DNA of 34,874 nt from Sphingomonadaceae bacterium. GTDB taxonomy: Bacteria; Pseudomonadota; Alphaproteobacteria; Sphingomonadales; Sphingomonadaceae. The notes beneath the pieces were generated by a model. It made no database searches, had not been told where the DNA came from, and saw only the letters and a program-made list of their open reading frames with translations. The stretch lies in NCBI GenBank assembly GCA_002863155.1, contig PKED01000189.1, forward strand, positions 1 through 34,874, written 5' to 3'. Within the stretch, counting starts at the first letter, position 1. The number at the start of each line of letters is the position of its first letter. Below, piece by piece: positions 47-22,743 of the stretch. The position numbers were made by a program, and so were the translations under genes.

Positions 47-1327
47 CTAAAGACACCAGTAGCGCCCAACATGCATTGGCACCTGCACATCTGGGAAACA
101 GTTCTTCAAATCGGCAAAGACACCTCCCGGTTTTACCAAAGATGCCAGCCGATCAAGGCCTATAGCCTTGTAAGCTTGGTGCGGCACGGCCAAGACTACC
201 AGCTCAAATTGTCCATCCAAAGCGGCCGTGTCGAGTTCCAGCCCGTATTCGTGAAGCGCCTCCTCGTTATCGGCATGGGGGTCGTGCACGGTGACCTTAT
301 GACCCATTGTCGATAATGACTGCACGAGATCCGCCACCTTTGAATTGCGGATATCCGGCACATCCTCCTTGAAGGTAAGGCCTAGAACCAGCACCGATCC
401 GACTCTGCCGCCAACAGCATCATGCAGCGAATTTGCCACCCACGCTGCCATCCCATCGTTGATCGAGCGGCCGGCCAAAATTACGCGAGGGTCATAGCCA
501 AGTTGCTGCGCACGAAAACTTAAGTAATACGGATCAACGCCAATGCAATGGCCACCGACCAGGCCAGGTTGGAACTTTAAGAAATTCCACTTAGTACCAG
601 CAGCCGCAAGAACGTCCCAAATGGAAATATCCATTTGGCTAAAGATCTGTGCAATTTCATTCATGAACGCGATATTTATATCTCGCTGGGCGTTCTCGAT
701 AACTTTTGCTGCCTCGGCTGTCCTGATCGACGCAGCGCGGAAGACGCCGCCCGATGTCACTGCCTCGTACAAGGCGGCCACGCGATCGAGCACCTCAGGC
801 GTTTGCCCGGATACCACCTTGGTAATCCGGTCGATTGTGTGCTCCCTATCACCCGGATTGATTCGTTCGGGCGAGTAGCCAACAAAGAAATCAGCACCGC
901 AAACCAGAGATGAGAGCTTTGCTAGGAGCGGAGCACAGATGTCTTCGGTCACTCCTGGATAGACGGTGCTTTCATAAATGACGATAGACCGTTTATTAGC
1001 CTGAAGAACACCGCCAACGGCACGCGTTGCACTTAGCACGGGGCCAAGGTCCGGACGATTATTCTCGTCGACGGGGGTCGGAACAGTCACAATGTAGAAA
1101 TCAGCGGGAGGACACTCACCAATGTCGGTTGAGAGTTTGAGCGTAGAGGCCTGCAACCGATTACTTTCAATCTCTCCCGTGCGGTCGTGCCGGTCGCTGA
1201 GTTCCTTAATTCGGCTGGTGTTGATATCGATACCCCAAGTATCGAATTTCTCCGCAAGCGCGACGGCGAGCGGCAGTCCGACATACCCCAGACCAATCAC
1301 AACAACCTTTGATTGAGATTTCTGCAT
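47..1327 (-). CDS. tviB: UDP-N-acetyl-hexosamine 6-dehydrogenase (TviB/WbpO-type nucleotide sugar dehydrogenase)
   Basis: Predicted to oxidise C6 of UDP-GlcNAc or UDP-GalNAc twice with NAD+, giving the hexosaminuronic acid donor for a polysaccharide. The 426-residue length is normal for the family. The N-terminal Rossmann motif is IGLGYVG (11-17). YSPERINPGD lies at 151-160, and the nucleophile motif GGHCIGVDPYYL places the catalytic Cys at 261. Start: ATG preceded by AAGGGAAAAAG as ribosome-binding site. It lies on the same strand as the flippase and CgeB-like GT upstream, but an IS3 element now separates them, so its expression may depend on its own or an IS-derived promoter. No TviC-like 4-epimerase is adjacent, so GlcNAcA versus GalNAcA cannot be decided. 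Family assignment is firm; substrate is inferred. Confidence 0.9.
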   Translation of the reverse strand: MQKSQSKVVVIGLGYVGLPLAVALAEKFDTWGIDINTSRIKELSDRHDRTGEIESNRLQASTLKLSTDIGECPPADFYIVTVPTPVDENNRPDLGPVLSATRAVGGVLQANKRSIVIYESTVYPGVTEDICAPLLAKLSSLVCGADFFVGYSPERINPGDREHTIDRITKVVSGQTPEVLDRVAALYEAVTSGGVFRAASIRTAEAAKVIENAQRDINIAFMNEIAQIFSQMDISIWDVLAAAGTKWNFLKFQPGLVGGHCIGVDPYYLSFRAQQLGYDPRVILAGRSINDGMAAWVANSLHDAVGGRVGSVLVLGLTFKEDVPDIRNSKVADLVQSLSTMGHKVTVHDPHADNEEALHEYGLELDTAALDGQFELVVLAVPHQAYKAIGLDRLASLVKPGGVFADLKNCFPDVQVPMHVGRYWCL

Positions 1328-5613: not shown

Positions 5614-6663
5614 ATGAAAAGAGCGTTGATCACTGGCATAACGGGACAAGACGGCGCCTATCTTAGCGAGCTTTTGCTTGCCAAGGGCTATGAAGTTCAT
5701 GGTATTAAGCGTCGCTCGTCCTCGTTCAATACTGGCCGGATCGATCACCTTTTCACAGACCCTCATCAAGAAGGCGGGCGATTTTTCCTGCATCACGGCG
5801 ACTTGACCGACGCAACCAATCTGATCCGCCTGGTACAAGAAATCGCGCCGGACGAAATTTACAATCTTGCGGCTCAGAGCCATGTTCAGGTCAGCTTTGA
5901 GACTCCCGAATATACCGCCAATGCGGATGCATTGGGAACGATGCGCCTACTGGAGGCACTGCGTATCCTGCGGCTCGAAGACAAGGTCCGTTTTTACCAA
6001 GCGTCGACTTCGGAGCTTTATGGACTGGTACAGGAAGTGCCGCAAAAAGAGACGACACCCTTTTATCCGCGCTCGCCCTATGCGGTTGCGAAACTTTACG
6101 GCTACTGGATCACGGTTAATTACCGCGAGGCTTATGGGATTCACGCGTCCAACGGCATCTTGTTCAACCACGAGAGCCCGCTGCGCGGCGAGACGTTCGT
6201 CACTCGTAAGATCACCCGCGCCGTCGCCGCTATCCATCACGGCCGCCAGAAGGAGATTTTCCTTGGCAATCTCGACGCCAAGCGGGATTGGGGCCATGCT
6301 CGGGACTATGTCGAAGGCATGTGGCGCATCGTTCAGCAGGACGTCGCTTCCGACTACGTCCTCGCGACGGGCGAAGCCCGGTCGGTGCGCGAGTTCGTCG
6401 AACATGCCTTCCGTGAAACTGGACGCGAAATAGATTGGGACGGATCGGGCGTCGATGAGGTCGGGCGCGACAAAGCGAGTGGACAAGTGCTCGTCCGCGT
6501 AGATCCTCGGTATTTCCGACCGACAGAAGTGGATTTTCTGATCGGCGATCCAGCCAAGGCAGAACGTGAGCTCGGCTGGCGGCACACCACCGGCTTCGTT
6601 GATATGGTACGCGAGATGGTGGCAGCCGATCTTGCCCTGTGCGCGGCGAATCAGGCGCGCTAG
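5614..6663 (+). CDS. gmd: GDP-mannose 4,6-dehydratase
   Basis: Converts GDP-D-mannose to GDP-4-keto-6-deoxy-D-mannose, the branch point for GDP-fucose, GDP-colitose, GDP-rhamnose and GDP-perosamine. The 349 residues are standard length for an extended SDR. GITGQDG (8-14) binds the dinucleotide. STSELYG (131-137) with T132/E134, plus Y156 and K160 in YAVAK, form the catalytic set. [14 protein letters not shown] (33-46) and [16 protein letters not shown] are Gmd hallmarks. It is the first gene of a three-gene operon, with the next ATG following its stop directly. No manA/manB/manC is nearby, so GDP-mannose must come from elsewhere. Confidence 0.96.
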
Positions 6664-7593
6664 ATGCGGGTTTGGTTGACCGGGGGTAACGGTATGGTCG
6701 GCGGGGCGTTGCGTCGCCTGGCGCCGGATCTCGCCCCGGACGTCGAGATAATAGCGCCGGGACGCGACATTCTTGATCTCACCGATCCTGCGGCGGTGCG
6801 CGGTTTCCTTGCCGACACGCGAATCGATGCCGTGATCCATGCCGCTGGCCGGGTTGGTGGGATTGCTGCCAACCTGCGCGACATGGCCGGTTTCTTGGCA
6901 GAGAACTTGGCGATTAACCTCGCAGTGATCGAAGGCGCGCGGCGAGCGGGTATCGGCACGCTGATCAATTTCGGCAGCTCGTGCATGTATCCTGTCAACT
7001 ATCGCCAGCCGCTGATCGAAGAGGATATCCTGGCCTCCCCGCTTGAACCGACCAACGAAGGCTATGCGCTCGCCAAGATCGCGGCCGCCCGTCACTGCGC
7101 CTACATCGCGCGCGAGACGGGGGCGGCATTTCGGACGATTATACCGTGCAACCTTTACGGTCCCGGGGACCATTTCTCGCTAACGCGCGGCCATCTGGTC
7201 GCGAGCGCGATCCGCAAGACGCATGATGCCAAACTGGCCAAGGCATCGCATGTCGAGATCTGGGGCGACGGCACGGCCCGCCGCGAGTTCCTTTATGTCG
7301 ACGATCTGGCCGGCTGGGTACTTCAACAAGCGTTGCAGCGGGCACGCGATTTGCCGCAGGATCTGAATGTCGGCTTCGGCGACGACTTTTCCGTCACCGA
7401 CTATTACCGCATGGCGGCGAAGGTTGTCGGCTATGAGGGCGACTTCCAATACGCCCCCTCCCGCCCAACTGGTATGCAGCAGAAGCTGATGAGTTCTGCT
7501 AGGGCCAAGGCATTTGGCTGGCGCGCGATTACCTCGCTCGATGAAGGAATGGCCACAGCTTATCGCTATTTCCGTCAGAAGGGTGACGAATGA
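6664..7593 (+). CDS. fcl: GDP-4-keto-6-deoxy-mannose epimerase/reductase (GDP-L-fucose synthase or ColC-type GDP-L-colitose synthase)
   Basis: An NADPH-dependent SDR that epimerises and reduces a GDP-4-keto-6-deoxy sugar. The 309 residues are typical. TGGNGMVG (6-13) is the nucleotide site. SSC places the acid/base C107, Y134/K138 form the YxxxK pair, and H176 is the second acid/base, so both epimerase and reductase functions look intact. It starts immediately after the gmd stop and overlaps the next gene by 4 nt or less. Because the next gene is ColD-like, it may act as ColC, epimerising C5 and reducing C4 of the 3,6-dideoxy intermediate, rather than making GDP-fucose. Fcl and ColC are homologous and cannot be separated by eye. 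Confidence 0.9.
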   Translation: MRVWLTGGNGMVGGALRRLAPDLAPDVEIIAPGRDILDLTDPAAVRGFLADTRIDAVIHAAGRVGGIAANLRDMAGFLAENLAINLAVIEGARRAGIGTLINFGSSCMYPVNYRQPLIEEDILASPLEPTNEGYALAKIAAARHCAYIARETGAAFRTIIPCNLYGPGDHFSLTRGHLVASAIRKTHDAKLAKASHVEIWGDGTARREFLYVDDLAGWVLQQALQRARDLPQDLNVGFGDDFSVTDYYRMAAKVVGYEGDFQYAPSRPTGMQQKLMSSARAKAFGWRAITSLDEGMATAYRYFRQKGDE

Positions 7594-8777
7594 TGCCGCA
7601 GCCCCCCCTACTCAGGCTAGCGACGGACAGTTGGGACGAGGCTGAATATGCAGCGATTGACCGCGTGGTGGCGTCGCGGCAGTTTTCCATGGGGCCTGAA
7701 GTCGCCGCATTCGAACGTGACGCGGCGGCGCTGTTCGGCAGTCGCCATGCGCTGATGGTCAACAGCGGCTCCTCCGCTAATCTCGTTGCGATTGCCGGTC
7801 TGGTCTATCATCCCAATGCCCCGCTGCAGCGCGGTGACGAGGTGATCGTCCCGGCGGTGTCCTGGAGCACAACCTTTTATCCCGTCCACCAGCTTGGTTT
7901 GAGCTTGCGCTTTGTCGATATCGATCGTGATACGCTCAACATCGACCTCAACCTGCTCGAAGCGGCGCTGACCCCGAAGACGAAGGGCGTCCTTGCCGTC
8001 AATCTGCTGGGCAATCCCGTCGACCTGCCGCGGCTGAGAACGTTTTGCGAAGCGCACGGGTTGGTGCTGATCGAAGACAATTGCGAATCAATGGGTGCCG
8101 AGATCGGCGGCAAGCAAGCCGGCACATATGGCCTTTGCGGAACATTCAGCACCTTTTTCTCCCACCATATCTCGACCATGGAAGGTGGGTTCGTTCTGAC
8201 CGACGACACAGTGCTTTACAACACGATGCTCTCGCTCAGGGCACATGGCTGGGTGCGCGGACAACCGGCGGACAGCCACCTGCCGATCCCCGAAGACGCG
8301 TTCATGCGGATGTTTCGCTTTGTGCTGCCAGGCTATAATCTGCGTCCTTTGGAGATGTCGGGGGCGATCGGGCAGGATCAGCTCCGCAAATTGCCGACGA
8401 TCGTGGCTGCGCGCCGCGCCAACGCCGACCATTTCCGGGCGTGTTGCGATGGCATCCCGGGGATCCGAATTCAAGCCGAGACCGGACGCAGCTCTTGGTT
8501 CGGGTTCGCAATCGTCCTTCAAGAGCATTTGCAGGGACGCCGGGCAGAACTGGTCGCTCGGCTACAGGCGGCAGGGGTCGAGTGCCGACCGATCGTCAGC
8601 GGCAACTTCCTCGCCAATCCTGTGGTCGAACTTCTGGATCACAGCGTCGCCGGACCTGTTCCCGTGGCCGAAGAGATCGACGCCAACGGTCTTTTCATTG
8701 GCAACCATCATTTTCCAATCAATGACTCTCTCAACCTGGTCGGGCAGCTGCTGCGCGAGTTCGCGACCGGCCAATAG
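7590..8777 (+). CDS. colD: GDP-4-keto-6-deoxy-D-mannose 3-dehydratase (ColD-type PLP enzyme)
   Basis: A member of the DegT/DnrJ/EryC1/StrS aminotransferase fold, 395 residues. Most members have a lysine that binds PLP. Here the motif is FSTFFSHHISTMEGG (186-200), with His192 at the lysine position, as in ColD (His188 there), which removes the C3 hydroxyl of GDP-4-keto-6-deoxymannose using PMP. D163 (IEDN) and S187 occupy other cofactor-contact positions. Encoded with gmd and fcl/colC, it completes a GDP-L-colitose route. The related E1 dehydrase also has His but uses CDP-sugars and a 2Fe-2S cluster; the GDP-sugar neighbours argue against it. The start is the first of two ATGs (7590 or 7593), overlapping the upstream stop. 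Confidence 0.88.
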   Translation: MMPQPPLLRLATDSWDEAEYAAIDRVVASRQFSMGPEVAAFERDAAALFGSRHALMVNSGSSANLVAIAGLVYHPNAPLQRGDEVIVPAVSWSTTFYPVHQLGLSLRFVDIDRDTLNIDLNLLEAALTPKTKGVLAVNLLGNPVDLPRLRTFCEAHGLVLIEDNCESMGAEIGGKQAGTYGLCGTFSTFFSHHISTMEGGFVLTDDTVLYNTMLSLRAHGWVRGQPADSHLPIPEDAFMRMFRFVLPGYNLRPLEMSGAIGQDQLRKLPTIVAARRANADHFRACCDGIPGIRIQAETGRSSWFGFAIVLQEHLQGRRAELVARLQAAGVECRPIVSGNFLANPVVELLDHSVAGPVPVAEEIDANGLFIGNHHFPINDSLNLVGQLLREFATGQ

Positions 8778-8822: not shown

Positions 8823-10100
8823 TCACCGGGTAGGTTGCGGACTGCCCAACAGCCGCACCTTCTTCAGCCTCAAGCCCGAAAGGCCGCTTCCCAGGAAGAG
8901 ATATAGGTAGAAATCGTGATTAGTCTGGTGAAACAGCCCCCCAGCCAGGCTCGCTACAAGCGTCAGGATTTCCAGCCTCATCCATGGCTTGTCCAAAGTT
9001 GCGCAATATTGCAGTTTTCGCCGATAACCTCGAACCGACAACACGCACAGCAATAAGAACAGCCCCGCACCCAGCAGACCAGTCTCACCCAAGATTTCCG
9101 AGGGAATCCCATGTGCTGCGGTAAGATAAGGCGTCAAACGGCCGACATAGTAGGACGTGCTCATGTAGCCTGTGCCTACGATTGGCGAGAGGTAGAATGA
9201 ATCGATCGAAACCTGCGTCACGAGGCGGCGTTCGACATCCACCCGGTCGGCACCGCCAACATTCGCCTCATAAAACACGGTATCGCCCAGTGCGAGCGAA
9301 GTGCCAGTAGGATCAAGGCGAGCAGATGCGATAAGATTCCCAAAGCGTTGAGTTTGAGAAAGTACGCCCCCAAGCGCCACCCCGACCACGGCCATGATTA
9401 CTAGGATAAGATTTACATATCTCTTGGAAATCCTCAGGCAAATTAATAGACTTGCCAGCAATATTGGCAAAATAAATATGATAAAGACTCGGTTCTCTAG
9501 GCTAAAGCCCACGCCCAACATGACAGTTAGCAATAAAATTGAAAGGTACGACTTATCTAGAATAATTCTACCCATCAAGGCTGGCGTAACAATTAGAAAT
9601 ATAAGTCCAAAGAGGCTTCTAAAGGCTCCCTTTCCTTCGTCCAAAAGCTCACCTATTGTTAATAGGTTTATGGATATACATACAATAAAAGCGAGCGCGT
9701 ACCATATTATTAATATAAATACAAATGAGTTCTTTTCATCCGGTTTCCAAAAAAATGGAATCGTAGAAAATAAAACAAAAATAGTGTCGATCCCAGATTG
9801 AAATAATCCCCTGCCGGGATCGGGCGACCAGAATGAGGAAATTGCTACATAAATTAGAAACAAAACTAATGGCCAAAGGCACCACAAACCAAAAACATGT
9901 CTTGAACGAGATATCGTCAAAATCATTAATACGGATATCAAGCCCGCTATATAAATAGCATATTGCAATAATACATAATACAAAACTGTGAAAGAAAATA
10001 TTGTCGCGCAGCATATTCCCGACAACAGGACATATGACGCCCGAGGACGGGTTAATTGAGGAACATATTTAGCTGCGGGATGTGCCGTTCGTTGTTGCAA
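8823..10100 (-). CDS. O-antigen polymerase/ligase-like membrane protein (Wzy/WaaL family)
   Basis: Predicted inner-membrane protein that polymerises repeat units (Wzy) or ligates polysaccharide (WaaL). About 11 hydrophobic segments are visible. A large periplasmic loop lies between SQTQRFGNLIASARL and HGIPSEILGETGLLG, the usual Wzy_C arrangement. I place the start at TTG 10100, preceded by GAGG at 9-nt spacing and 1 nt after the stop of the upstream GT. The frame stays open to ATG 10139 and 10232, but those lie inside the upstream gene without a ribosome-binding site. The middle of the gene is strikingly AT-rich (17 of 60 bases are G or C at 9721-9780), unlike everything around it, which suggests foreign origin. 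Wzy versus WaaL is undecided; Wzy is favoured by cluster content. Confidence 0.8.
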   Translation of the reverse strand: MQQRTAHPAAKYVPQLTRPRASYVLLSGICCATIFSFTVLYYVLLQYAIYIAGLISVLMILTISRSRHVFGLWCLWPLVLFLIYVAISSFWSPDPGRGLFQSGIDTIFVLFSTIPFFWKPDEKNSFVFILIIWYALAFIVCISINLLTIGELLDEGKGAFRSLFGLIFLIVTPALMGRIILDKSYLSILLLTVMLGVGFSLENRVFIIFILPILLASLLICLRISKRYVNLILVIMAVVGVALGGVLSQTQRFGNLIASARLDPTGTSLALGDTVFYEANVGGADRVDVERRLVTQVSIDSFYLSPIVGTGYMSTSYYVGRLTPYLTAAHGIPSEILGETGLLGAGLFLLLCVLSVRGYRRKLQYCATLDKPWMRLEILTLVASLAGGLFHQTNHDFYLYLFLGSGLSGLRLKKVRLLGSPQPTR

Positions 10101-11522: not shown

Positions 11523-13385
11523 ATGTGTGGAATAATTGGTTACCTATCGGCTACGACGCCGATCGATCCCGGGCTATTCGACGCCATGCGGGACATGTCG
11601 ACCCATCGCGGGCCCGACGGCGCGGGATCATGGATGTCGCAGGATCGTCGCGTCGCGCTTGGGCACCGACGCCTGGCGATCATCGATCTGACCGAGGGCG
11701 GCTTCCAGCCGATGTCGTCCCCCGACGAACGCTACATCATCACCTACAACGGAGAGATCTATAATTATAAGGAACTGCGCGAGGAGTTGCGTGCTCGGGG
11801 GCACGCTTTCAAAACCGACAGCGATACCGAGGTGCTGCTCGCGGCCTATCTGGAATGGGGTGATGCCGCCCCGACCCATCTGCAGGGCATGTTCGCCTTT
11901 GCGATTTTCGACCGCAAGACTCAGTCGCTCTTCGCGGCGCGCGATCGTGCCGGCGAAAAGCCGTTTTTCTATCGGCAGGCCGGTCGAGGTCTGATTTTCG
12001 GTTCTGAACTAAAGATGCTGCTGCGCGACCCCGAGGTACCGCGAGAAGCCGACCCGGTGGCCCTTGATCACTATCTGGCCTATGGCCATGTCCCGCGCGA
12101 GCTTTGCCTGCTCAAGGGCTTTGCCAAGCTGCCCGCGGGCCACTCGCTGCGCTATGATCTGAATGCCGACAGCCTGTCCGTGACAGCATACTGGACTCTG
12201 CCGCGGCGCGAGGCCGACGCGGCCGAGCAGACGTTTGACGCCTTGGTGGATGAGCTGGAACCACTGCTGGATCAGGCCGTCCGCCGCCAGCTGGTCGCCG
12301 ACGTGCCGGTCGGCGTGCTTCTGAGCGGTGGGCTGGACAGCAGCCTGATCGCCGCCACGGCAACCCGCGTCTCCAGCCGCGTCCAGACCTTCACCATCGG
12401 CTTCCCCGATCATTCGGCCTATGATGAAAGCCCCTTGGCCAAGCGTCTGGCCAGCGAACTGGGTACCGACCATGTCGAACTGATGGTCAATCCCAACGCA
12501 TATGACCTTCTTCCCCAACTTGCCGCACAGTTCGACGAGCCGATCGCCGACAGCTCGATGATTCCCACCTTCATCGTCAGCCAATTGGTCCGCACGCGTG
12601 CAACCGTGGCTTTGGGCGGCGATGGCGGGGATGAGCTATTCGGTGGTTACCATCATCATGCCTGGATGCAGAACATGGCCAAGCTCCGAGCGGCCGGTAT
12701 TCACCGGCTGCCGCTGGCCCGGTCACTGGCCGATGCCGCCCTCCCCTATCGCGCCAAAGCGCGGAAGACCGTGCTCCGCCTGTTCGACAAATATGATCCG
12801 GCGATTACCGTTACACGGCTGATGGAGCCAAGCCTGCGGCAAGCGCTGATTGGGCCCCGGCACCTGGTTCCCAATCAAGCTGCCGAGCAATTTCGAGCGG
12901 ACCTGATCGGCGACTGGGTGGAACCGCGCGAGCGTGCAATGGCGCTCGATTACCTGACGTACATGTGCGACGACATCCTCGTGAAGGTCGATCGCTCAAG
13001 CATGCTTGCATCACTCGAAGTCCGGGCGCCGATGCTCGACCCGGCGATCATTGAATTCGCTTTCGGCCGACTCTCGCCCGAACGGCGCGTCAGCCAATCG
13101 GGGCGTAAGCTGATGCTGCGCCATCTGGCAAAGCGCAGGCTGCCCGCTTGGTTCGATACCGCCCGCAAGCAAGGCTTCTCTATCCCGCTTCCCGCCTGGC
13201 TGCGCGGTCCCTGGAAACCGTTGCTTGACGATATCGCCAGCTCTGCCGATGACAGCTTGCTCGATCCTCAAGCGGTCCGTCGGTTCCTTGCTGGCGGGCT
13301 CGCTGCCGACCGGCTCGCCCATCCGGTGTTCCAGATCGCAATGCTGGAACTCTGGCGACGCCAATACAACGTAAGAATGGCCTGA
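11523..13385 (+). CDS. asnB: Asparagine synthase (glutamine-hydrolysing) family amidotransferase
   Basis: The AsnB fold couples glutamine hydrolysis to ATP-dependent amidation. It has 620 residues. Cys2 is the class II glutaminase nucleophile after Met1 removal, with RGPDG (29-33) and NGEIYN (76-81). The synthetase domain has the PP-loop SGGLDSS (268-274). In polysaccharide clusters such proteins (WbpS-like) are thought to amidate uronic acids rather than make asparagine. The TviB-type dehydrogenase in this locus could supply such a uronic acid. It opens the second plus-strand series, and the next gene follows after 2 nt. Amidation of a sugar is inference; ordinary asparagine synthesis is not excluded. 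Confidence 0.9.
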   Translation: MCGIIGYLSATTPIDPGLFDAMRDMSTHRGPDGAGSWMSQDRRVALGHRRLAIIDLTEGGFQPMSSPDERYIITYNGEIYNYKELREELRARGHAFKTDSDTEVLLAAYLEWGDAAPTHLQGMFAFAIFDRKTQSLFAARDRAGEKPFFYRQAGRGLIFGSELKMLLRDPEVPREADPVALDHYLAYGHVPRELCLLKGFAKLPAGHSLRYDLNADSLSVTAYWTLPRREADAAEQTFDALVDELEPLLDQAVRRQLVADVPVGVLLSGGLDSSLIAATATRVSSRVQTFTIGFPDHSAYDESPLAKRLASELGTDHVELMVNPNAYDLLPQLAAQFDEPIADSSMIPTFIVSQLVRTRATVALGGDGGDELFGGYHHHAWMQNMAKLRAAGIHRLPLARSLADAALPYRAKARKTVLRLFDKYDPAITVTRLMEPSLRQALIGPRHLVPNQAAEQFRADLIGDWVEPRERAMALDYLTYMCDDILVKVDRSSMLASLEVRAPMLDPAIIEFAFGRLSPERRVSQSGRKLMLRHLAKRRLPAWFDTARKQGFSIPLPAWLRGPWKPLLDDIASSADDSLLDPQAVRRFLAGGLAADRLAHPVFQIAMLELWRRQYNVRMA

Positions 13386-14506: not shown

Positions 14507-14571
14507 TGCAGTCGGCGAGGCTTGATTGAGTTCGGATGGCGTAAAGTTTTGTTTCGGGACGAGTGGACACA

Positions 14572-15606
14572 ATGTTCAAGGGAAAGACACTGCTGATTTC
14601 AGGGGGAACGGGGTCGTTCGGCGGTGCCGTTCTTCGACGCTTTCTCGACAGTGATATCGGCGAAATCCGGATCTTCAGCCGAGATGAGAAGAAGCAAGAT
14701 GACATGCGGTCTCTTTACACGAGCGACAAGCTCCGGTTCATTATCGGAGACGTTCGAGATCCGATAGCGATCGGCAATGCGACGCGCGATGTCAATTTTG
14801 TCTTTCATGCCGCGGCGTTAAAGCAGGTCCCGTCATGCGAATTTCACCCGCTTGAAGCCGTACAGACGAATATCAACGGCACGGCCAACCTGCTTGAGGC
14901 TGCTGTCGCTAATGGTGTGGATCGGGTTATCTGCCTCAGCACGGACAAGGCAGTCTATCCGATCAATGCGATGGGCATGTCCAAAGCATTGATGGAAAAG
15001 GTGATGATCGCGAAGTCGCGCTTGCCGAGGCGCGGTGGCGGCGTGATCTGCGGAACGCGGTACGGCAATGTGATGGCCTCACGAGGCTCAGTAATCCCGC
15101 TGTTTGTCAACCAGATCATCGAAGGTCTGCCGATCACGGTCACCGACCCCTCCATGACCCGATTCATGATGTCTTTGGACGATGCGGTCGAGTTGGTTTT
15201 GTTTGCCTTTCAGCATGGTGAGAACGGCGACATATTTGTTCAAAAAGCGCCAGCATCCACAGTGGGCACTGTCGCCCGTGCAATTGCCGAACTCATGGGC
15301 GTGCCCGACCACCCGATCAAAGAAATCGGAACGAGGCACGGCGAGAAACTTTATGAAACATTGCTGACACGTGAAGAGATGGTCACCGCGCGTGATCTAG
15401 ATCGATATTTCAGAATTCCGCCGGATATGCGTGATCTTAACTACTCTAAGTATTTTATTGAAGGTGAAAAGAGCATTTCGGAAGCAATCGATTACAATTC
15501 TCATAATACCAGAAGGCTTGATCTACAGGAAACGAAGGACTTACTGATGACCCTGTCGTTTGTGCGCGCTGCAGTTGAAGGAAAGGTGTCTGTACCCAAT
15601 TTCTAG
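14572..15606 (+). CDS. UDP-GlcNAc 4,6-dehydratase/5-epimerase (CapE/WbjB/FnlA/WbvB family)
   Basis: First step from UDP-GlcNAc toward L-configured 6-deoxy-HexNAc sugars (L-FucNAc, L-RhaNAc, L-QuiNAc). Numbering here counts from GTG 14563, which adds three residues. GGTGSFG (14-20) is the Rossmann loop. STDKAVYPINAMGMSK (126-141) has Met where SDRs usually have Tyr, the signature of the CapE/WbjB branch rather than PseB or FlaA1. RYGNVMASRGSVIPLF and TVTDPSMTRFMM are also characteristic. I prefer the ATG at 14572, which matches the family start MFKGKTLLISGG. It is followed by the WbuB-like GT, a reductase and a 2-epimerase. Confidence 0.9.
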   Translation: MFKGKTLLISGGTGSFGGAVLRRFLDSDIGEIRIFSRDEKKQDDMRSLYTSDKLRFIIGDVRDPIAIGNATRDVNFVFHAAALKQVPSCEFHPLEAVQTNINGTANLLEAAVANGVDRVICLSTDKAVYPINAMGMSKALMEKVMIAKSRLPRRGGGVICGTRYGNVMASRGSVIPLFVNQIIEGLPITVTDPSMTRFMMSLDDAVELVLFAFQHGENGDIFVQKAPASTVGTVARAIAELMGVPDHPIKEIGTRHGEKLYETLLTREEMVTARDLDRYFRIPPDMRDLNYSKYFIEGEKSISEAIDYNSHNTRRLDLQETKDLLMTLSFVRAAVEGKVSVPNF

Positions 15607-15690
15607 CTTTGCCTCCCCTTTATCGTTCCTACTACTGGCTCTTCAATATCATCCAGGCGCAAAGCCGCTCTTGTAAGGAAGCAGGATGCA

Positions 15691-16932
15691 ATGCTGCGCA
15701 TTTTGATGATCAGTCAAAGTTTCTGGCCGGAAGATTTTCGTATCAACCAGATAGCGGCAGATTTGATACGCGCGGGCGTACAGCTTACGGTGCTAACCGG
15801 GCAGCCCAATTATCCGGAAGGAAAGATATTTCCGGGCTATCGGCCACTATCGGCCGGATGCGAGGATCATGAGGCTGGGTATAAGATTGTTCGCGTCCCC
15901 CTTGTGCCTCGGGGCCGCGGCGGGGGCCTCCGGCTCATTTTAAATTATGCTTCATTCCTTATCGGCGGCATCGTGATTGGCGGTTGGCTGGTGCGCGGCG
16001 CGAAATTTGACGTCGTGTTCGTTTATGGCAATTCACCAGTCACTCAGGGATTCATCGCCATCTGGATCGGCTGGCTGAAACGTGCGCCGGTAGTCCAATG
16101 GATCCAGGACCTCTGGCCCGATGCGCTTTCTGCCACTGGGCACGTACGGTCCCCGATTATCCTTGGGACAGTCGGCTGCATCGTGCGTTTTATGTATCGC
16201 CAGTCTGATCTCGTTCTGGCGCAGTCCCGATCGATAGCAGCTTATTTGATCAAGCAGGCCGCGCCAGTACCGGTCCGTTATTTCCCTAATCCCGGCGAGC
16301 ATCAGCGGCCTCTTTTGGGCGCCGGTCGACGGCTCCTACCCGTAGGTTTCAACATTGTTTTTGCCGGCAATCTTGGTCGCGCGCAGGCACTGGATACCGT
16401 GATCGCTGCGGCCGCCCGTCTGACGGATCTTCATGACGTGCGCATTCATCTATTTGGTTCAGGATCGATGACCGCATGGCTTAAGCAGGAAATCAGCCGG
16501 CTTGGCTTGGCGAACGTGATGCTGCCAGGGCGCGTCACGCCGGCTGAGATCGCCTCGATCTACAAGGAGGCTGACGCTCTGTTGCTGACGCTTGTCGGCG
16601 ACCCAATGGTTGCGCTGACCGTCCCTAGCAAACTGCAGTCTTATCTCGCGGCCGGGCGGCCGATCATCGCCGCAGCCGACGGAGAAGCGGCAAAAATTGT
16701 CGGTTCGTCGGGCAGCGGCCTTTGCTGCAGCGCCGGCGACCCACAGCAGCTCGCGTCAACGATTCGCCATATGTACGCCCTGACGCAGCAAGAGCGCGAG
16801 CAGTTAGGGGCATCGGGCAGACAGTATTTTGAAGCACATTATCAGGCAGATGTGCTGACCCAGAAGCTTGTTGATGGGCTGACAAAGGTCGCGGCGGGCG
16901 ACCGCATGCATGCCTTCCGCTCAGGAGATTGA
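15691..16932 (+). CDS. Glycosyltransferase family 4, WbuB-like (probable L-HexNAc transferase)
   Basis: 413 residues. It opens with MLRILMISQSFWPEDFRINQ and has LTGQPNYPEGKIFPGY near 36, both typical of WbuB, which works beside the L-FucNAc genes fnlABC in enteric O-antigen loci. The donor domain has FNIVFAGNLGRAQALD, the WbuB-type TVPSKLQSYLAAGRPIIAA and no classical E-x7-E. A hydrophobic segment around 90-105 may associate with the membrane. AAGGA lies upstream of the ATG. It sits inside the L-sugar module, between dehydratase and reductase, which suggests it transfers that module's product. Its C-terminus overlaps the ribosome-binding site of the next gene. Confidence 0.87.
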   Translation: MLRILMISQSFWPEDFRINQIAADLIRAGVQLTVLTGQPNYPEGKIFPGYRPLSAGCEDHEAGYKIVRVPLVPRGRGGGLRLILNYASFLIGGIVIGGWLVRGAKFDVVFVYGNSPVTQGFIAIWIGWLKRAPVVQWIQDLWPDALSATGHVRSPIILGTVGCIVRFMYRQSDLVLAQSRSIAAYLIKQAAPVPVRYFPNPGEHQRPLLGAGRRLLPVGFNIVFAGNLGRAQALDTVIAAAARLTDLHDVRIHLFGSGSMTAWLKQEISRLGLANVMLPGRVTPAEIASIYKEADALLLTLVGDPMVALTVPSKLQSYLAAGRPIIAAADGEAAKIVGSSGSGLCCSAGDPQQLASTIRHMYALTQQEREQLGASGRQYFEAHYQADVLTQKLVDGLTKVAAGDRMHAFRSGD

Positions 16933-16934
16933 CA

Positions 16935-17798
16935 TTGAAGATCATGGTCTTGGGTGCCACGGGCATGCTAGGTAGCGCAGTGACGCGTGTCGCGGCCGAC
17001 CGGCACGATTATGAGGTGGTGGCCGCTGCCCGAAACGCAGAACCTCTGAAGGCGAAATTGCCCTCGGCAAAACTACAATTTGCAGAGGGATTGGACGTTG
17101 AAAACTTCGAAAGCTTGAGTGCCGTTTTTTCCAGCCACCGTCCCGATGTCGTCATTAACTGCGTGGGCATCGTCAAACAACTGGCATCTTCCTCAGACAT
17201 CATGACTGCGGTGCCGATCAACACGTTACTGCCGCATCGCTTGAAGCGCCTGTGCGAATTGCTTGGGAGTCGATTGGTTCACATAAGTACGGATTGTGTC
17301 TTCTCTGGCCGTACAGGCAACTACAACGAGTCAGACATCTCAGATGCACGTGACCTGTATGGCGTCAGCAAGTTTTGGGGCGAGGTCGGTGGCCAGCATG
17401 CAGTCACGTTGCGGACGTCGATCATCGGGCCAGAGCTTCGTAGCGCGCACGGCCTGCTGGGCTGGTTTCTGGCTCAGGAAGGTCCGGTTCGTGGTTTCAA
17501 ACGCGCCATCTTTTCTGGGCTGCCGACCAACGAGCTCGCACGGATCATCTTCGACCACGTGATCCCGAACCCAGATTTGCAGGGCTTGTATCACGTTTCA
17601 GCCGCGCCAATTGACAAGGATTCATTGCTCAGATTGTTCGCCAAACACTATGCCCGGGCAAACATAATAACGTCTGATGAGGCGTTGGTAATTGATCGAT
17701 CGCTCGATTCGTCTCGGTTCAGAACTGCTTCCGGCTATCACCCACCTGACTGGGATCAGCTAATCGGAGAAATGTTTACTTTTGATCAAGGCTATTAA
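16935..17798 (+). CDS. RmlD-like SDR reductase (WbvR-type, UDP-4-keto-L-HexNAc reductase)
   Basis: Predicted to reduce the C4 keto group of the L-sugar intermediate made by the CapE-like enzyme, using NAD(P)H. It has 287 residues from TTG 16935, placed 7 nt after GGAG (16924-16927). An upstream in-frame TTG at 16929 is too close to that site. The nucleotide motif is GATGMLG, and VHISTDCVFSGRTGNYNE and DLYGVSKFWGE are RmlD-family catalytic regions (Ser/Thr, Tyr, Lys). It lacks the C-terminal cupin found in CapF/WbjC, so the L-FucNAc branch is less likely and WbvR-like UDP-L-RhaNAc formation more likely. Confidence 0.84.
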   Translation: MKIMVLGATGMLGSAVTRVAADRHDYEVVAAARNAEPLKAKLPSAKLQFAEGLDVENFESLSAVFSSHRPDVVINCVGIVKQLASSSDIMTAVPINTLLPHRLKRLCELLGSRLVHISTDCVFSGRTGNYNESDISDARDLYGVSKFWGEVGGQHAVTLRTSIIGPELRSAHGLLGWFLAQEGPVRGFKRAIFSGLPTNELARIIFDHVIPNPDLQGLYHVSAAPIDKDSLLRLFAKHYARANIITSDEALVIDRSLDSSRFRTASGYHPPDWDQLIGEMFTFDQGY

Positions 17799-17812
17799 AG
17801 ATAGGCTTAACA

Positions 17813-18940
17813 ATGAAGGTAGCAACAATTGTTGGGACACGCCCCGAACTGATCAGGCTTTCGCTCACTATCGCCAAGCTGGATAAATATTGCGATCACC
17901 TACTTGTCCATACTGGTCAGAATTACGATTTTGAATTGAACGAGGTCTTTTTTCAAGACCTGAACATTCGTCGGCCCGATAAGTTCTTGAACGCGGCAGG
18001 TGCAAGCGCTGCAGAGACAATTGCCAACGTCATTCAGTCGACCGATGCCTTTCTGGCCGAAACTCAGCCTTCGGCCGTATTGATTTTGGGAGATACCAAC
18101 AGCGCGCTCGCGGCGATTTCTGCAAAACGCCGACGAATTCCAATTTTCCACATGGAAGCGGGCAACAGGTGTTTCGACCAGCGGGTGCCGGAGGAAATCA
18201 ACCGAGTCATTGTCGATCACATTGCCGATATCAATCTGACTTACAGCGATATTGCACGAGAGATGTTGTTGCGAGAAGGCTTGCCGCCCGATCGCGTGAT
18301 CAAGACCGGTAGTCCAATGTTCGAGGTCATTGACTTCTTCAAAAGCAACATTGCCGCATCGGATGTGCTCGACCGGTTCAATTTGCAAAGAGAAGAATTC
18401 TTCGTCGTCAGCTCTCATCGCGAAGAAAATATCGACTCCGACCGCAATTTTTCACGCCTGGTGGCGGTACTCAACCACCTTGCCGTTCGGCATAACCTTC
18501 CTGTCATCGTATCGACACATCCAAGGACCCAAAAGCGGATCGCAGCCAGCGGTGCAAATTTTGATTCTCGGATCAATTTTCTAAAGCCCTTGGGCTTTCA
18601 CGACTATATCAGCCTTCAAATGTCTGCACGCGCCGTGCTTTCAGATAGCGGAACCATTACCGAAGAGGCGTCGATCCTTAATTTTCCTGCTATCAATCTG
18701 CGCGAAGCCCATGAACGTCCAGAAGGAATGGAGGAGGCATCGGTCATTCTAACCGGGCTGAATCTCGATCGGGTGGAAGAGGCCCTTGCCATCCTCGCCG
18801 ATCAGCCGCGCGGAACGGATCGATCATTGCGCTTGGTCAGCGACTACGCGATGCCGAACGTGTCCGAGAAAGTCGTCAGGCTGATTACCAGCTATTCTGA
18901 CTATGTTCGGCGTACAGTCTGGCACGACTATGAAGACTAA
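17813..18940 (+). CDS. UDP-HexNAc 2-epimerase, non-hydrolysing type (WbvD/WbjD/CapG-like)
   Basis: Predicted to invert C2 of the UDP-L-HexNAc made upstream, for example UDP-L-RhaNAc to UDP-L-QuiNAc. The 375 residues fit the GT-B-like WecB family. VGTRPELIRL (7-16), HTGQNYD, GDTNSAL, HMEAGNR, PEEINR and SSHREENID are the conserved active-site blocks. It starts 14 nt after the reductase stop. The sequence alone could also be WecB (UDP-ManNAc synthesis). The adjacent CapE-like dehydratase and RmlD-like reductase make the L-sugar role the better reading. Confidence 0.88.
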   Translation: MKVATIVGTRPELIRLSLTIAKLDKYCDHLLVHTGQNYDFELNEVFFQDLNIRRPDKFLNAAGASAAETIANVIQSTDAFLAETQPSAVLILGDTNSALAAISAKRRRIPIFHMEAGNRCFDQRVPEEINRVIVDHIADINLTYSDIAREMLLREGLPPDRVIKTGSPMFEVIDFFKSNIAASDVLDRFNLQREEFFVVSSHREENIDSDRNFSRLVAVLNHLAVRHNLPVIVSTHPRTQKRIAASGANFDSRINFLKPLGFHDYISLQMSARAVLSDSGTITEEASILNFPAINLREAHERPEGMEEASVILTGLNLDRVEEALAILADQPRGTDRSLRLVSDYAMPNVSEKVVRLITSYSDYVRRTVWHDYED

Positions 18941-19005
18941 GAGACAATGTTAGCCGGACGGCGAGGCAAGCCTATCCCATTCCTCAAGCACAGCGAGCGC
19001 AGTCA

Positions 19006-19947
19006 ATGAAGGTAGCAGTGACTGGCGCCTCCGGCTTCGTCGGCGGCGCCCTAATTGCCGCGATTCGTGCGGAAGGCGTCGACGCCTTGGCGCTTGTCCG
19101 TCAGTCAACCGGCGCCGCGATGGAAATCGCGGTTGGAGACCTCTCGACTGCACAGCCTTCACCGGAAGCGTTGGAAAAGATTGACGCAATTATCCACCTT
19201 GCGGCGCGCGCGCATGTGATGAAAGATCATGACGCAGATCCGCTGTCAGCCTATCGAGCTATCAATGTCAGAGGCACCCGCAATATTTTGGAAGCAGCGG
19301 CGGCTGCGGGCGTCAAGCGCTTTGTATATGTCAGTTCGATCAAGGCATGTGCGGAGCGTTCGACGCCGGGTTCTCCGCTGACTGAAAGAACACCCGAAAC
19401 ACCCGAGGATGCCTATGGCATCTCCAAACTCGAAGCGGAGAAACTGGTCGCCGAAACGGCGTCGCAGAACGGCATGGAATGGACTGTCGTCCGTCCCCCA
19501 TTGGTCTATGGGCCAAATGTTCGCGGCAATTTTGAGCGCCTGATCGCGCTCGCAAATCGCCAATTGCCTCTCCCTTTTGGCGCGATCAACAATCGCCGAA
19601 GCATCATTTCCCTGGATAATCTTACAGCGGCGCTAGTAGCCGCGTGTCGATCGCCTGACGTCAATACCCGCAAGTTAATGCTCGCTGATGATTGCCTATC
19701 GACCCCTGCACTTTTACGGGCGATCGGTCAGGCACTGGGTCGGCCGCAGCGTTTGTTGCCGGTGCCGGTCGCGCTATTGCTCCGCGGCGGCGGGATGGCC
19801 GGGCGGCGCGCTGTCATAAGCCGACTGTGCGAGTCACTCGAAATCGACGCCGCACCAAGCTGGCAGGCCTTGGGGGTACGCCCCAGTAAAACGACAGCCG
19901 AGTCCATGGACGCCACGGTTGACGCTTGGCGCGCACAGGTCAGCTGA
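19006..19947 (+). CDS. UDP-4-keto-QuiNAc 4-reductase (WbpV/WreQ-like NAD-dependent epimerase/dehydratase)
   Basis: An extended SDR of 313 residues. GASGFVG (7-13) binds the cofactor, S110/S111 with Y137 and K141 (YGISK) form the catalytic set, and RPPLVYGPNVRGNFERL is typical of the WbpV/WbmF group that reduces the 4-keto intermediate to D-QuiNAc. The next two genes are a short phosphoglycosyl transferase and a WbpM-like dehydratase. This trio recurs as wbpV-wbpL-wbpM in Pseudomonas and as wreQ, wreU and wreV in Rhizobium. The exact product is inferred; a D-FucNAc-type reductase cannot be excluded. Confidence 0.83.
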   Translation: MKVAVTGASGFVGGALIAAIRAEGVDALALVRQSTGAAMEIAVGDLSTAQPSPEALEKIDAIIHLAARAHVMKDHDADPLSAYRAINVRGTRNILEAAAAAGVKRFVYVSSIKACAERSTPGSPLTERTPETPEDAYGISKLEAEKLVAETASQNGMEWTVVRPPLVYGPNVRGNFERLIALANRQLPLPFGAINNRRSIISLDNLTAALVAACRSPDVNTRKLMLADDCLSTPALLRAIGQALGRPQRLLPVPVALLLRGGGMAGRRAVISRLCESLEIDAAPSWQALGVRPSKTTAESMDATVDAWRAQVS

Positions 19948-20061
19948 TAGCCCCTCGACTGGTGTAACCTGCACGATCGGCTGGTGTTGCGCGGCTAACG
20001 TCACTTGTATGCCTTGGTCGGTTCAGCTAACCCCGCCCCAAGCTGGTGAAGAGGAGCGATG

Positions 20062-20628
20062 ATGAAGCGGCTTGTCGATTTGGCCGCGGCGTTGATTTCG
20101 GCACCGCTGGTGATACCGGTTTGCATCATTCTGATGGCGGTTATCAGGCTGGAAAGCAAAGGGAACCCGCTCTTCGTTCAACGCCGTGTCGGCAGACACC
20201 AACGCCTATTCTGGATGCTAAAGTTGCGCACGATGCAGGCCAATACGGGCGATCTCCCATCGCATATCGCGGGTGAACAAACGATTACCAGAGTTGGGCG
20301 GCTTCTTCGCCGCCTGAAGCTCGACGAGTTACCGCAATTGTTCAACGTGGCCATGGGAGAGATGAGCCTTGTCGGCCCGCGGCCTTGCCTCCCTTCGCAG
20401 CATGAACTGGTTGCAGAGCGCGCCCGGCTGGGGGTTTTCGCCTATTCACCCGGAATAACGGGACCGGCGCAGGTCGCTGGGATTGACATGTCTCAACCGA
20501 GGCGGCTCGCGGAGGCAGAGGCGGCTTATTTTCGCGGCGCAACCCTTGCCGAGGATGTCAAGATTCTGCTGGCAACGGTGTCGGGCCGCGGATCTGGGGA
20601 TGCGGCAGCAGCGGAGCGTCATTCGTGA
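20062..20628 (+). CDS. Initiating sugar transferase (PglC/WreU-like monotopic phosphoglycosyl transferase)
   Basis: Transfers a HexNAc-1-phosphate from a UDP donor to undecaprenyl phosphate, starting repeat-unit synthesis at the inner membrane. It has 188 residues, the minimal Bac_transf domain without the multi-TM WcaJ extension. A hydrophobic re-entrant helix (about 5-28) is followed by FVQRRVGRH, KLRTM and the catalytic Asp-Glu pair in LKLDELPQL, then GEMSLVGPRPCLPSQ and YSPGITG. The start is ATG 20062, with AGGAG at 5-nt spacing; ATG 20059 is too close. Flanking genes suggest D-QuiNAc-1-P or its 4-keto precursor as substrate. Confidence 0.9.
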   Translation: MKRLVDLAAALISAPLVIPVCIILMAVIRLESKGNPLFVQRRVGRHQRLFWMLKLRTMQANTGDLPSHIAGEQTITRVGRLLRRLKLDELPQLFNVAMGEMSLVGPRPCLPSQHELVAERARLGVFAYSPGITGPAQVAGIDMSQPRRLAEAEAAYFRGATLAEDVKILLATVSGRGSGDAAAAERHS

Positions 20629-20762
20629 CCTTCAATCACTCCGGCCCGGGATCGCCAAATTCCAGGGATCCGGCTATGACGCTGGGCATATTGCGATCGA
20701 TCGCGGGCTGTGACGAACTGGACTCTGCCTGGCTGCAATCTTCCCTGAATACGAGCCCCTGA
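20625..20762 (+). CDS. Possible small ORF between sugar transferase and WbpM-like gene (doubtful)
   Basis: A 45-codon frame starts with GTG overlapping the upstream stop (GTGA) and ends 1 nt before the ATG of the next gene, filling the gap exactly. The predicted peptide has no recognisable domain, signal or transmembrane segment. A chance open frame of this size in GC-rich DNA is quite likely. Confidence 0.2.
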   Translation: MTFNHSGPGSPNSRDPAMTLGILRSIAGCDELDSAWLQSSLNTSP

Positions 20763-20763
20763 G

Positions 20764-22743
20764 ATGAGCACCGCAGTCCTGATCGATTGGGTCCTCGGGC
20801 TTTCTAGGAGGGCCAAGCGACTGATTGCGCTGTCCTTTGACAGCTTTTGTTGTGGGCTGAGCGTCTTGCTAGCCTTCTATCTTCGGTTGGGCGTCTGGCC
20901 CTCGATTGACGCTATTGTTGCTGTGCCAGCGCTTGTGTCGATCGCAATAGCGCTTCCGATCTTCGTGCTGTTCGGTCTCTATCGGGCGATTTTTCGCTAT
21001 ATTGGCTGGAGTGCAATCCTCGCGATCATTCGGGCGATTGCGCTTTATTCGTTCGCCTTTGTTGCCATTTATACTATTTTCGGCGTGGCCAACGTCCCGC
21101 GTACTGTGGGCCTTATCCAGCCAATTATCCTATTCCTTCTGATCGCGTCCTCTCGAATGATCGTGAGGCTATTCCTAGCCGAACGCTATGCCGATTTGTG
21201 GCGCAAAAACTCGTTGCCTCGGGTTATAATTTATGGCGCGGGATCTTCAGGCCGGCAATTGGCGAGCGCGATCAGGGCATCGAACGAGATGAAAGTCGTG
21301 GGCTTTGTCGACGATGATGCCGAGCTCTGGCAATCAACGATCGATGGTGTCCCCGTGCACAAACCCAGTGCGGTGGAGAGTTTGGTAAGCCGTCACACGG
21401 TAAGCGACGTTCTGCTGGCCATGCCCTCTGCCAGTCGCGCCCGTCGCAACGAGATTGTGCGTCAGATGCGGGAGCTGAACCTGGAGGTCCGCACCCTGCC
21501 CGGCCTGCTGGATATTGCACGCGGCAAGGTCTCTGTCACCGATCTGCGGACCGTCCAGATCGAGGATCTTTTGGGTCGCCCGCCCGTAAAACCGGATTAC
21601 GACCTGGTCGGCGACAGCGTGGGCGGCGCGACGATTCTGGTTACCGGCGCCGGTGGATCAATCGGCGGCGAACTGTGTCGCCAGATCATCCTCAACCACC
21701 CCGGACGCTTGCTGCTTGTCGATTCTAGCGAGTTCAACCTCTATTCAATCCATCATGAGCTGATGGAGATAGCCACCAATAATGGGATAGACGGTGAAGT
21801 AATCGTTCCGCTGCTCGCGTCGGTGATCGATGACAGACGGATGACGGAAATCTTTGCAGCCTGGCGACCAAGCACGGTTTTTCACGCGGCTGCTTTCAAG
21901 CATGTCCCGCTCGTCGAACATAACATTGTCGAGGGAGTACGAAATAACGCGATCGGTACTTATGAAACGGCGCGCCTTGCACAACGCTACAGTACTTCCC
22001 GGTTCATCTTGATTAGCACCGACAAGGCAGTTCGACCCACAAATATCATGGGAGCGAGCAAGCGACTGGCCGAGATGATGCTCCAGGCAATGAACGATGC
22101 GGGTGGCGCGACGCGTTTTTCCATGGTCAGGTTCGGAAACGTTTTGGGATCAAGTGGATCGGTAGTGCCACTGTTCCGTCGTCAACTCGCAGCGGGCGGT
22201 CCGGTGACGGTCACACACCCGGAAATGACGCGCTACTTCATGACGATTCCCGAAGCAGCGCAACTCGTACTGCACGCTGGAGCCATGACGAGTGGTGGCG
22301 AGGTCTATGTGCTCGACATGGGTGAACCGGTCTTGATCATAGATTTGGCCCGCAACATTATCGAATTGTCGGGCCTTTCCGTGCGCGATTGCGAAAATCC
22401 GGACGGAGACATCGAAATTCGTGTTGTGGGTCTGCGACCAGGCGAGAAACTCTATGAAGAGCTGCTGATCGGCGACAATCCGGAGCCTACGTCACACCCC
22501 CGGATTTGCCGTGCAAACGAACGTTTTGAGCCTTGGCCGCAGTTAATGCCCAGGCTGGCGGAATTGCAGCGCGCAATTGCAGCCGGCGACGCACGTGAGA
22601 CGCAGCGGATACTTGGCTCGATCGTCACCGAATACCGGCCTAATTCCCCAATGGTTGACTGGATTGCCTGCGCTTCTAACACGAGCACAGGCTTCGATCA
22701 TAAAGCCGCAATCAAGCTTGCAGCCACATCCGCAGGGCCATAG
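20764..22743 (+). CDS. UDP-GlcNAc 4,6-dehydratase, membrane-bound (WbpM/WreV-like, FlaA1 family)
   Basis: Makes UDP-2-acetamido-2,6-dideoxy-D-xylo-4-hexulose, precursor of D-QuiNAc or D-FucNAc. It has 659 residues: four N-terminal TM segments (about 20-43, 51-73, 84-107, 115-130), a CoA-binding-like Rossmann domain (IIYGAGSSGRQLA near 155-167) and a C-terminal dehydratase domain. That domain has TGAGGSIGGE (294-303), ISTDK (417-421) and MGASK (429-433), with Met replacing the SDR tyrosine as usual for this family. FHAAAFKHVPLVE and RFGNVLGSSGSVVPLF are also family blocks. It is the last gene of the polysaccharide locus and overlaps the convergent DUF2474 gene by 32 nt. Confidence 0.92.
   Translation: MSTAVLIDWVLGLSRRAKRLIALSFDSFCCGLSVLLAFYLRLGVWPSIDAIVAVPALVSIAIALPIFVLFGLYRAIFRYIGWSAILAIIRAIALYSFAFVAIYTIFGVANVPRTVGLIQPIILFLLIASSRMIVRLFLAERYADLWRKNSLPRVIIYGAGSSGRQLASAIRASNEMKVVGFVDDDAELWQSTIDGVPVHKPSAVESLVSRHTVSDVLLAMPSASRARRNEIVRQMRELNLEVRTLPGLLDIARGKVSVTDLRTVQIEDLLGRPPVKPDYDLVGDSVGGATILVTGAGGSIGGELCRQIILNHPGRLLLVDSSEFNLYSIHHELMEIATNNGIDGEVIVPLLASVIDDRRMTEIFAAWRPSTVFHAAAFKHVPLVEHNIVEGVRNNAIGTYETARLAQRYSTSRFILISTDKAVRPTNIMGASKRLAEMMLQAMNDAGGATRFSMVRFGNVLGSSGSVVPLFRRQLAAGGPVTVTHPEMTRYFMTIPEAAQLVLHAGAMTSGGEVYVLDMGEPVLIIDLARNIIELSGLSVRDCENPDGDIEIRVVGLRPGEKLYEELLIGDNPEPTSHPRICRANERFEPWPQLMPRLAELQRAIAAGDARETQRILGSIVTEYRPNSPMVDWIACASNTSTGFDHKAAIKLAATSAGP

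Follow-up and report, generated by a model that had tools for sequence, protein, structure and literature searches.

The window analysed here is one entire contig of 34,874 bases from the 3.29 Mb genome of a Sphingomonadaceae bacterium. Our analysis supports its being a surface-polysaccharide locus with two enzyme sets, leading from UDP-N-acetylglucosamine (UDP-GlcNAc) to 6-deoxy-N-acetylhexosamines of the L- and of the D-series. Seven consecutive genes occupy positions 14563-22743 on one strand, with all frames open over their length. In order, they encode a FnlA/CapE-type dehydratase, a GT4-family glycosyltransferase, an RmlD-family reductase, a 2-epimerase, a WbpV-like short-chain dehydrogenase/reductase (SDR), a small phosphoglycosyl transferase (PGT) of the Bac_transf family and a 659-residue WbpM-like dehydratase. 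Profile searches matched each of them to its expected family (Table 1). The matches run over nearly the whole length of the proteins, and within the window's own family the QnlA-type reductase is seldom found, so this gene set is not a chance assembly. Scanning the genome with PF02719 gave eight places above the cut-off, but only the two dehydratase genes of the window exceeded 55 bits and no second copy of either was found. An earlier interpretation, made from the letters alone (the sequence-only reading), had proposed separate L and D dehydratase routes, and this is borne out. All the genes it named are in place, intact and of the expected family, but it had passed over the GT4 gene lying between the first dehydratase and the reductase. 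The best explanation, which we regard as probable, is a Wzx/Wzy-type polysaccharide locus with parallel L- and D-branches starting from UDP-GlcNAc.

The first dehydratase, for which both GTG 14563 and ATG 14572 are possible starts, matched the FnlA profile TIGR04130 over residues 4-338 of 347, with 562.9 bits as compared to 313.4 bits for PseB. Its best solved relatives were PDB entries 4j2o (E = 8.9e-154) and 3vvb, CapE (E = 1.7e-135), and it is 61-71% identical to its counterparts in E. coli, Proteus, Mesorhizobium and P. aeruginosa loci. Likewise, the 2-epimerase matched 4hwg (E = 1e-125) and CapG (7ya2, E = 9.8e-120), as compared to 1.7e-31 for the UDP-GlcNAc 2-epimerase 1f6d. Since FnlA and the epimerase are common to the pathways for L-N-acetylfucosamine (L-FucNAc) and L-N-acetylquinovosamine (L-QuiNAc), and the reductase sets the configuration at C4, it is the reductase that decides between the two sugars. 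WbjC/CapF reductases of the L-FucNAc pathway have a C-terminal cupin domain. In the 289-residue protein of the window, no such domain was found in the Pfam search and no match to the WbjC profile NF047837 was obtained at E = 1e-3. Nor did any tblastn match to the WbjC-type loci (L022-L028 and L032) exceed 60 bits. Over its length, the protein aligned at 45%, 41% and 43% identity with the E. coli proteins of O123/O186, O181 and O163, and it is 49-56% identical to five proteins from Mesorhizobium, Bradyrhizobium, Rhizobium (two) and Legionella. Y144 and K148 are invariant in the nine sequences aligned. The gene following fnlA is annotated wbjC in the E. coli O15, O26, O4 and O29 loci and 'dTDP-4-dehydrorhamnose reductase family protein' in O123/O186, O181 and O163. 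In the open reading frames of 115 loci (a set that leaves out L005-L020, L025 and others), the QnlA type was counted in 19 loci, corresponding to 16 distinct places, and the WbjC type in 10; the two never occurred together.

Published systems agree with this division. The E. coli O123/O186-type locus L029 combines a FnlA-type dehydratase, an RmlD-type reductase and an epimerase, and the printed E. coli O123 repeat contains alpha-L-QuipNAc (PMC10609480). Proteus O1, O2, O31 and O55 carry fnlA-qnlAB; among the serogroups listed in PMC5560731, those with QuiNAc all carry fnlA-qnlAB and those with FucNAc fnlABC. In a giant virus, a 270-residue NADPH-dependent enzyme is described as producing UDP-L-N-acetylrhamnosamine (UDP-L-RhaNAc), the adjoining epimerase being credited with L-QuiNAc (PMC9614988). 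Relatives sharing up to 53% identity with the QnlA-type reductase are encoded at 66 loci of a viral collection (L171-L236); they were set aside, since none carries a name and the Megavirus enzyme could not be singled out among them. The identification of the L-product as UDP-L-QuiNAc, already proposed by the sequence-only reading, is thus well supported through the QnlA rather than WbjC type of the reductase, as far as a product may be predicted from its enzymes. Synthesis of UDP-L-FucNAc by a WbjB/WbjC/WbjD pathway could draw on the two shared enzymes, and the epimerase of the window in fact shares 66-67% identity with its counterparts from the WbjC loci of E. coli O15, O26, O4 and O29 (63.5% in L028) as compared to 60-65% for O163, O123/O186 and O181. 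The RmlD/QnlA-type reductase makes this outcome very improbable, and L-FucNAc was rejected on that ground. An epimerase tree was dropped as a discriminator: the window sequence fell outside the WbjC sequences but close to them, support was weak and the QnlA loci were paraphyletic.

As concerns the D-series, Y137, K141 and the glycines G7, G10 and G13 of the WbpV-like reductase are invariant in six aligned sequences. The 12 sequences that a PDB search with this protein returned (E 1e-10) bear the names of general SDR proteins, among them epimerases, reductases and oxidoreductases. Over 657 residues, the long dehydratase shares 51.9% identity with the product of a gene on plasmid p42b of R. etli CFN 42, which we take to be lps-beta-2/WreV; it is 57% identical to a Sphingomonas taxi protein and 46-47% identical to WbpM-type proteins of P. 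aeruginosa. The small PGT is 38% identical to the sugar transferase adjoining the R. etli p42b dehydratase. The order WbpV-like reductase, PGT, WbpM-like dehydratase is also found in L075, L076, L105 and L108.

Which D-sugar this module supplies was approached through its reductase. Two P. aeruginosa loci served as references: L070, presumably of serotype O6 on account of its tviB, tviC and asnB homologues, and L027, which from its gene order we take to be O11-like and to make D-FucNAc. The D-reductase is 38.4% identical to the WbpV-type protein encoded ahead of the WbpL and WbpM genes in the former, 38.5% to the P. cichorii protein (L090) and 41.5% to the wbjF-position protein of the latter, the best value among the references of presumed function. 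Two Rhizobium genomes, chosen because their DNA matches the p42b gene of R. etli at 96 and 89% identity, each contain a single strong homologue (L165/L166; 39.9 and 41.3%), which we infer to be a WreQ orthologue; a third genome of this type (G329, 87%), outside the tree, also has one. The closest sequences by identity were those of L074 (47.1%) and L075 (46.1%). In a FastTree phylogeny of 69 sequences, the window protein branched outside all labelled clades (node support 0.193). Because it stands apart from these clades and is no closer to either type of enzyme, the configuration at C4 cannot be read from the sequence. The loop following the catalytic serine was rejected as a discriminator, since its variants do not separate the products: it reads KACAE in the window and KVNGE in 38 of the 69 sequences, including five of the six references of presumed function, the sixth (L104) having KACGE; KAC occurs in three sequences, from the window, L104 and L125. 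Five alignment columns separate four presumed QuiNAc from two presumed FucNAc reductases, too few sequences to be relied upon; at these columns the window agrees with the QuiNAc set at two, with one FucNAc sequence at two and with neither at one.

On balance we lean towards UDP-D-QuiNAc as the predicted product of the D-branch. Of the corresponding claim of the sequence-only reading, the separate D-route stands, whereas the reductase proved no closer to presumed D-QuiNAc than to presumed D-FucNAc enzymes. A D-FucNAc product, with which the two amino sugars would be L-QuiNAc and D-FucNAc and not enantiomers of one sugar, keeps a sizeable probability, somewhat short of even. It is favoured by the best reference identity, that to L027, and by the table of A. 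baumannii K loci, as printed in PMC9676051, with 21 fnr/gdr (D-FucNAc) and three qnr/gdr (D-QuiNAc) entries. However, the differences in identity between QuiNAc- and FucNAc-type references are small, the window protein lies outside all labelled clades, and for its nearest relatives, L074 and L075, we know of no established product. The printed repeat of P. aeruginosa O6 contains alpha-D-QuipNAc (PMC10609480).

We then consider how often the two modules occur together. In the window's own family, matches to the QnlA-type reductase above 200 bits were obtained in four of 298 genomes, including that of the window; 147 others matched at E 0.001, with 53.6 bits at best, and 147 had no match. Of the five other genomes of the same genus, four lacked a match and the fifth had a weak one (31.5 bits), which fits horizontal gain. 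An adjoining D-module is present in two of the four strong genomes, namely in the window and in G194 (L168). In the latter, some 7 kb separate the two reductases, and the stretch read takes in only the cut end of the WbpM-like gene. Outside the family, Pseudomonas sp. GV085 (L080) has the unbroken order glycosyltransferase, QnlA, FnlA, epimerase, WbpV, WbpL, WbpM. Microbulbifer variabilis (L091) also pairs QnlA-type and WbpV-like reductases, and on a plasmid of Rhizobium sp. WL3 (L069) PGT-WbpM-WbpV faces epimerase-FnlA-QnlA-glycosyltransferase. Four pairs are more divergent or partial. A metagenome-assembled Burkholderiales genome (L084) has a FnlA-like gene only 43-44% identical and no initiating transferase over threshold (WbpL-like, 103 bits). 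In Mariprofundus micogutta (L140), the FnlA-like gene is again only 43-44% identical and the WbpV-like match only 28%. A Legionella adelaidensis plasmid (L068) shows glycosyltransferase-QnlA-FnlA-WbpV, without epimerase or WbpM in the stretch scored. Paenibacillus periandrae (L116, 4778-11513) consecutively encodes a WbpM-like protein, a glycosyltransferase, a QnlA-type reductase, an epimerase, a WbpV-like reductase and a small PGT, with no FnlA within its 12.7 kb; FnlA may be encoded elsewhere, or one dehydratase may feed both reductases. In the paired loci, the two reductase genes lie within about 8 kb of each other, while order, strand and initiating transferase vary. Thus, looking for a like gene order in other genomes, as the sequence-only reading had advised, revealed the pairing in Rhizobium, Pseudomonas, Microbulbifer and a second genus of the window's own family.

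The sampling sets the scope of these counts. L080, L084, L091, L116 and L140 were retrieved through the D-reductase, so that their share is no frequency. Among the 80 matches listed from the alignment of this enzyme to a species-genome collection, which holds more, at least five had a QnlA-type and at least three a WbjC-type reductase nearby (L088, L090, L108). From the L-side, 41 plasmid records were available, 35 of them from Priestia and left out; of the six others, two (Rhizobium WL3 and Legionella adelaidensis) have a WbpV-like gene within about 3 kb, Rhizobium Q54 has one about 25 kb from the QnlA-type gene and three have none at E 1e-40. No paired QnlA/WbpV locus is described in the literature found, which covers subscription journals thinly.

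The following biosynthesis would account for the gene set. Gene content, protein families, the catalytic motifs conserved in both reductases and the repeated pairing were observed, and the products, linkages and order of residues are predicted from them. FnlA would convert UDP-GlcNAc to a 4-keto-L sugar, which the RmlD-like QnlA enzyme would reduce to UDP-L-RhaNAc; the CapG-type epimerase would then yield UDP-L-QuiNAc. The small PGT would place the D-sugar on undecaprenyl phosphate, and a WbuB-type transferase would add L-QuiNAc as the second residue. The remaining residues, namely colitose, a uronic acid that may be amidated and a further sugar, may be attached by three other transferases. 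The proposed order of residues follows from the initiating transferase being part of the D-module, from the GT4 homologues adjoining L-sugar genes and from the alternation seen in the P. cichorii polymer (see below). The window GT4 scored 113.5 bits against PRK10307, under its cut-off of 276, and is 40% identical to the transferase located after the 2-epimerase in L027. Homologues immediately precede the QnlA-type gene in L068, L069, L071, L072, L080, L084, L091, L116 and L140, the one in L071 being annotated WbuB. More tentatively, and with less than even confidence, we suggest that a widespread, unnamed cassette makes the donors of both QuiNAc enantiomers from a single pool of UDP-GlcNAc and that the first two residues are L-QuiNAc on D-QuiNAc, joined by a WbuB-type transferase.

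Several observations weigh against the reading of the locus as two parallel branches with these products. The D-reductase is about equally far (38-42% identity) from presumed QuiNAc and presumed FucNAc enzymes, and the FnlA match remains below the NCBIfam cut-off of 730 bits for TIGR04130. No D-module was found in the stretches read around the L-side loci L021, L071, L072, L169 and L170 (the last two, from G292 and G232 of the window's family, covering 19 kb) or around three E. coli loci. The left end of the cluster is a contig edge, where genes may be missing, and no sugar analysis of the source organism was found in the literature. It could also be that one of the two modules is a leftover of recombination, unused in the polymer. 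A precedent exists in A. baumannii PSgc5/PSgc24 (PMC3726653), an IS3-type transposase lies close to the left end of the window and parts of the cluster have a lower G+C content. Yet none of the frames is interrupted, and the recurrence of the pairing in distant bacteria speaks for joint use; we consider an idle module unlikely.

Table 1. Genes of the two 6-deoxy-HexNAc modules and other sugar genes of the window, with predicted roles
Feature	Positions	Strand	Basis
FnlA/WbjB/CapE-type UDP-GlcNAc 4,6-dehydratase, predicted 5-/3-epimerase; first L-series step	14563..15606	+	family match
GT4 glycosyltransferase, WcaI/WbuB group; probably adds the L-sugar	15691..16932	+	PF00534/PF13692
QnlA/WbvR-type 4-reductase, RmlD family; predicted product UDP-L-RhaNAc	16929..17798	+	PF04321, 84.8 bits
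2-Epimerase, CapG/FnlC/QnlB type; predicted UDP-L-RhaNAc to UDP-L-QuiNAc	17813..18940	+	TIGR00236, 224.3 bits (cut-off 210.15)
WbpV/WbpK/WreQ-like 4-reductase; predicted product UDP-D-QuiNAc or UDP-D-FucNAc	19006..19947	+	WbpV-family homology
Small PGT; predicted to initiate the repeat with the D-sugar	20059..20628	+	PF02397, 161.1 bits
Long WbpM/WreV-type retaining UDP-GlcNAc 4,6-dehydratase; first D-series step	20764..22743	+	PF02719, 387.3 bits, and PF13727
Colitose set: Gmd, ColC/Fcl-like, ColD	5614..8777	+	TIGR01472, 588.7 bits (cut-off 415)
TviB/WbpO-like nucleotide-sugar 6-dehydrogenase; uronic acid supply	47..1327	-	TIGR03026, 373.4 bits (cut-off 189.8)
Amidotransferase resembling asparagine synthase; possible amidation of the uronic acid	11523..13385	+	TIGR01536, 464.6 bits (cut-off 267.1)

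The surrounding cluster also encodes Wzx-like and Wzy-like proteins and three further glycosyltransferases. The supply of colitose, previously deduced by the sequence-only reading, finds support in Gmd, in a protein matching GDP-fucose synthases (ColC/Fcl-like, 6664-7593) and in ColD, whose match to ColD/WbdK (PDB 2gms) has an E value of 8.8e-124 and in which the SHH motif is kept. The histidine of this motif replaces the lysine that binds pyridoxal phosphate. GDP-colitose would need GDP-mannose; on another contig of the genome, a ManC-like match (G000:C24:4041-5081) contains one TAG. Matches of the colitose genes to the paired loci L069, L080, L091, L168, L084, L068, L116 and L140 did not exceed 60 bits. 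The putative uronic acid dehydrogenase scored 406.9 bits with the TviB model, under the cut-off of 592, and the amidotransferase is 37% identical to the asnB product of L070. An IS3-family transposase frame (1623-2702, minus strand) adjoins the dehydrogenase gene and has the Rfam ALIL pseudoknot (2454-2570) in its first part. The G+C content is 0.434 at 9001-10000, in the Wzy-like gene, and 0.516-0.668 in the other 1-kb steps. At the other end, a tRNA-Glu gene (ctc, 33018-33092) is followed by a long open frame (33179-34873) that starts with a DUF6538 domain, known from integrases, and runs off the contig; the right end of the window probably marks the border of an integrated element.

Should both products be QuiNAc, mirror-image donors are kept apart in the cell, so that each dehydratase, reductase and transferase must accept one hand only. 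As a recurrent arrangement, the pairing provides a natural set of enzymes for studying how stereochemistry is controlled at C4 and C5, and also for predicting sugars from genomes, where D-QuiNAc and D-FucNAc could not be told apart by sequence.

Compared with known systems, the closest layouts are those of P. aeruginosa L027, P. putida L088 and P. cichorii L090, in which, as in the window, a single block unites the L-series, a GT4 homologue, a WbpV-like reductase and WbpM. These three have WbjC (L-FucNAc) in place of the QnlA type, and their initiating transferase is of the WbpL type in L027 and L088 and was not detected in L090, whereas the window has a small PGT. The L-series precedes the D-series in all three, as in the window and in Vibrio penaeicida L108. 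The P. cichorii O-polysaccharide alternates L-FucNAc and D-QuiNAc (PMC6804347); L090, from strain MAFF 302096 and maybe not the strain analysed, encodes FnlA, WbjC, the epimerase, a GT4 homologue, a WbpV-like reductase and WbpM. E. coli O123/O186, O163 and O181 share the three-enzyme fnlA-qnlA-qnlB route and an adjoining GT4 gene with the window but, unlike it, have no D-series module in the 10.5-10.7 kb stretches read. Proteus O1, O2, O31 and O55 follow the same L-route (PMC5560731). R. etli (WreV/WreQ) and P. aeruginosa O6 (WbpV/WbpL/WbpM) resemble the window in having a long dehydratase, a 4-reductase and an initiating transferase, but no L-series module was found in the stretches read of L070, L154, L165 and L166, and their reductases are only 38-41% identical to that of the window. 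The repeat of Bacteroides fragilis polysaccharide B, as printed in a review (PMC4931636), contains beta-D-QuiNAc, alpha-L-QuiNAc, galacturonic acid and L-fucose. By its printed repeat rather than by genes, it has both QuiNAc enantiomers, as may be the case for the window, and lacks colitose. This weakens the earlier suggestion that the repeat unit would be unusually rich in deoxy sugars. The presence of both QuiNAc enantiomers in one polymer is already known from this polysaccharide, and the L-before-D gene order from Pseudomonas. The noteworthy point is that the QnlA/WbpV pairing turned up so many times.

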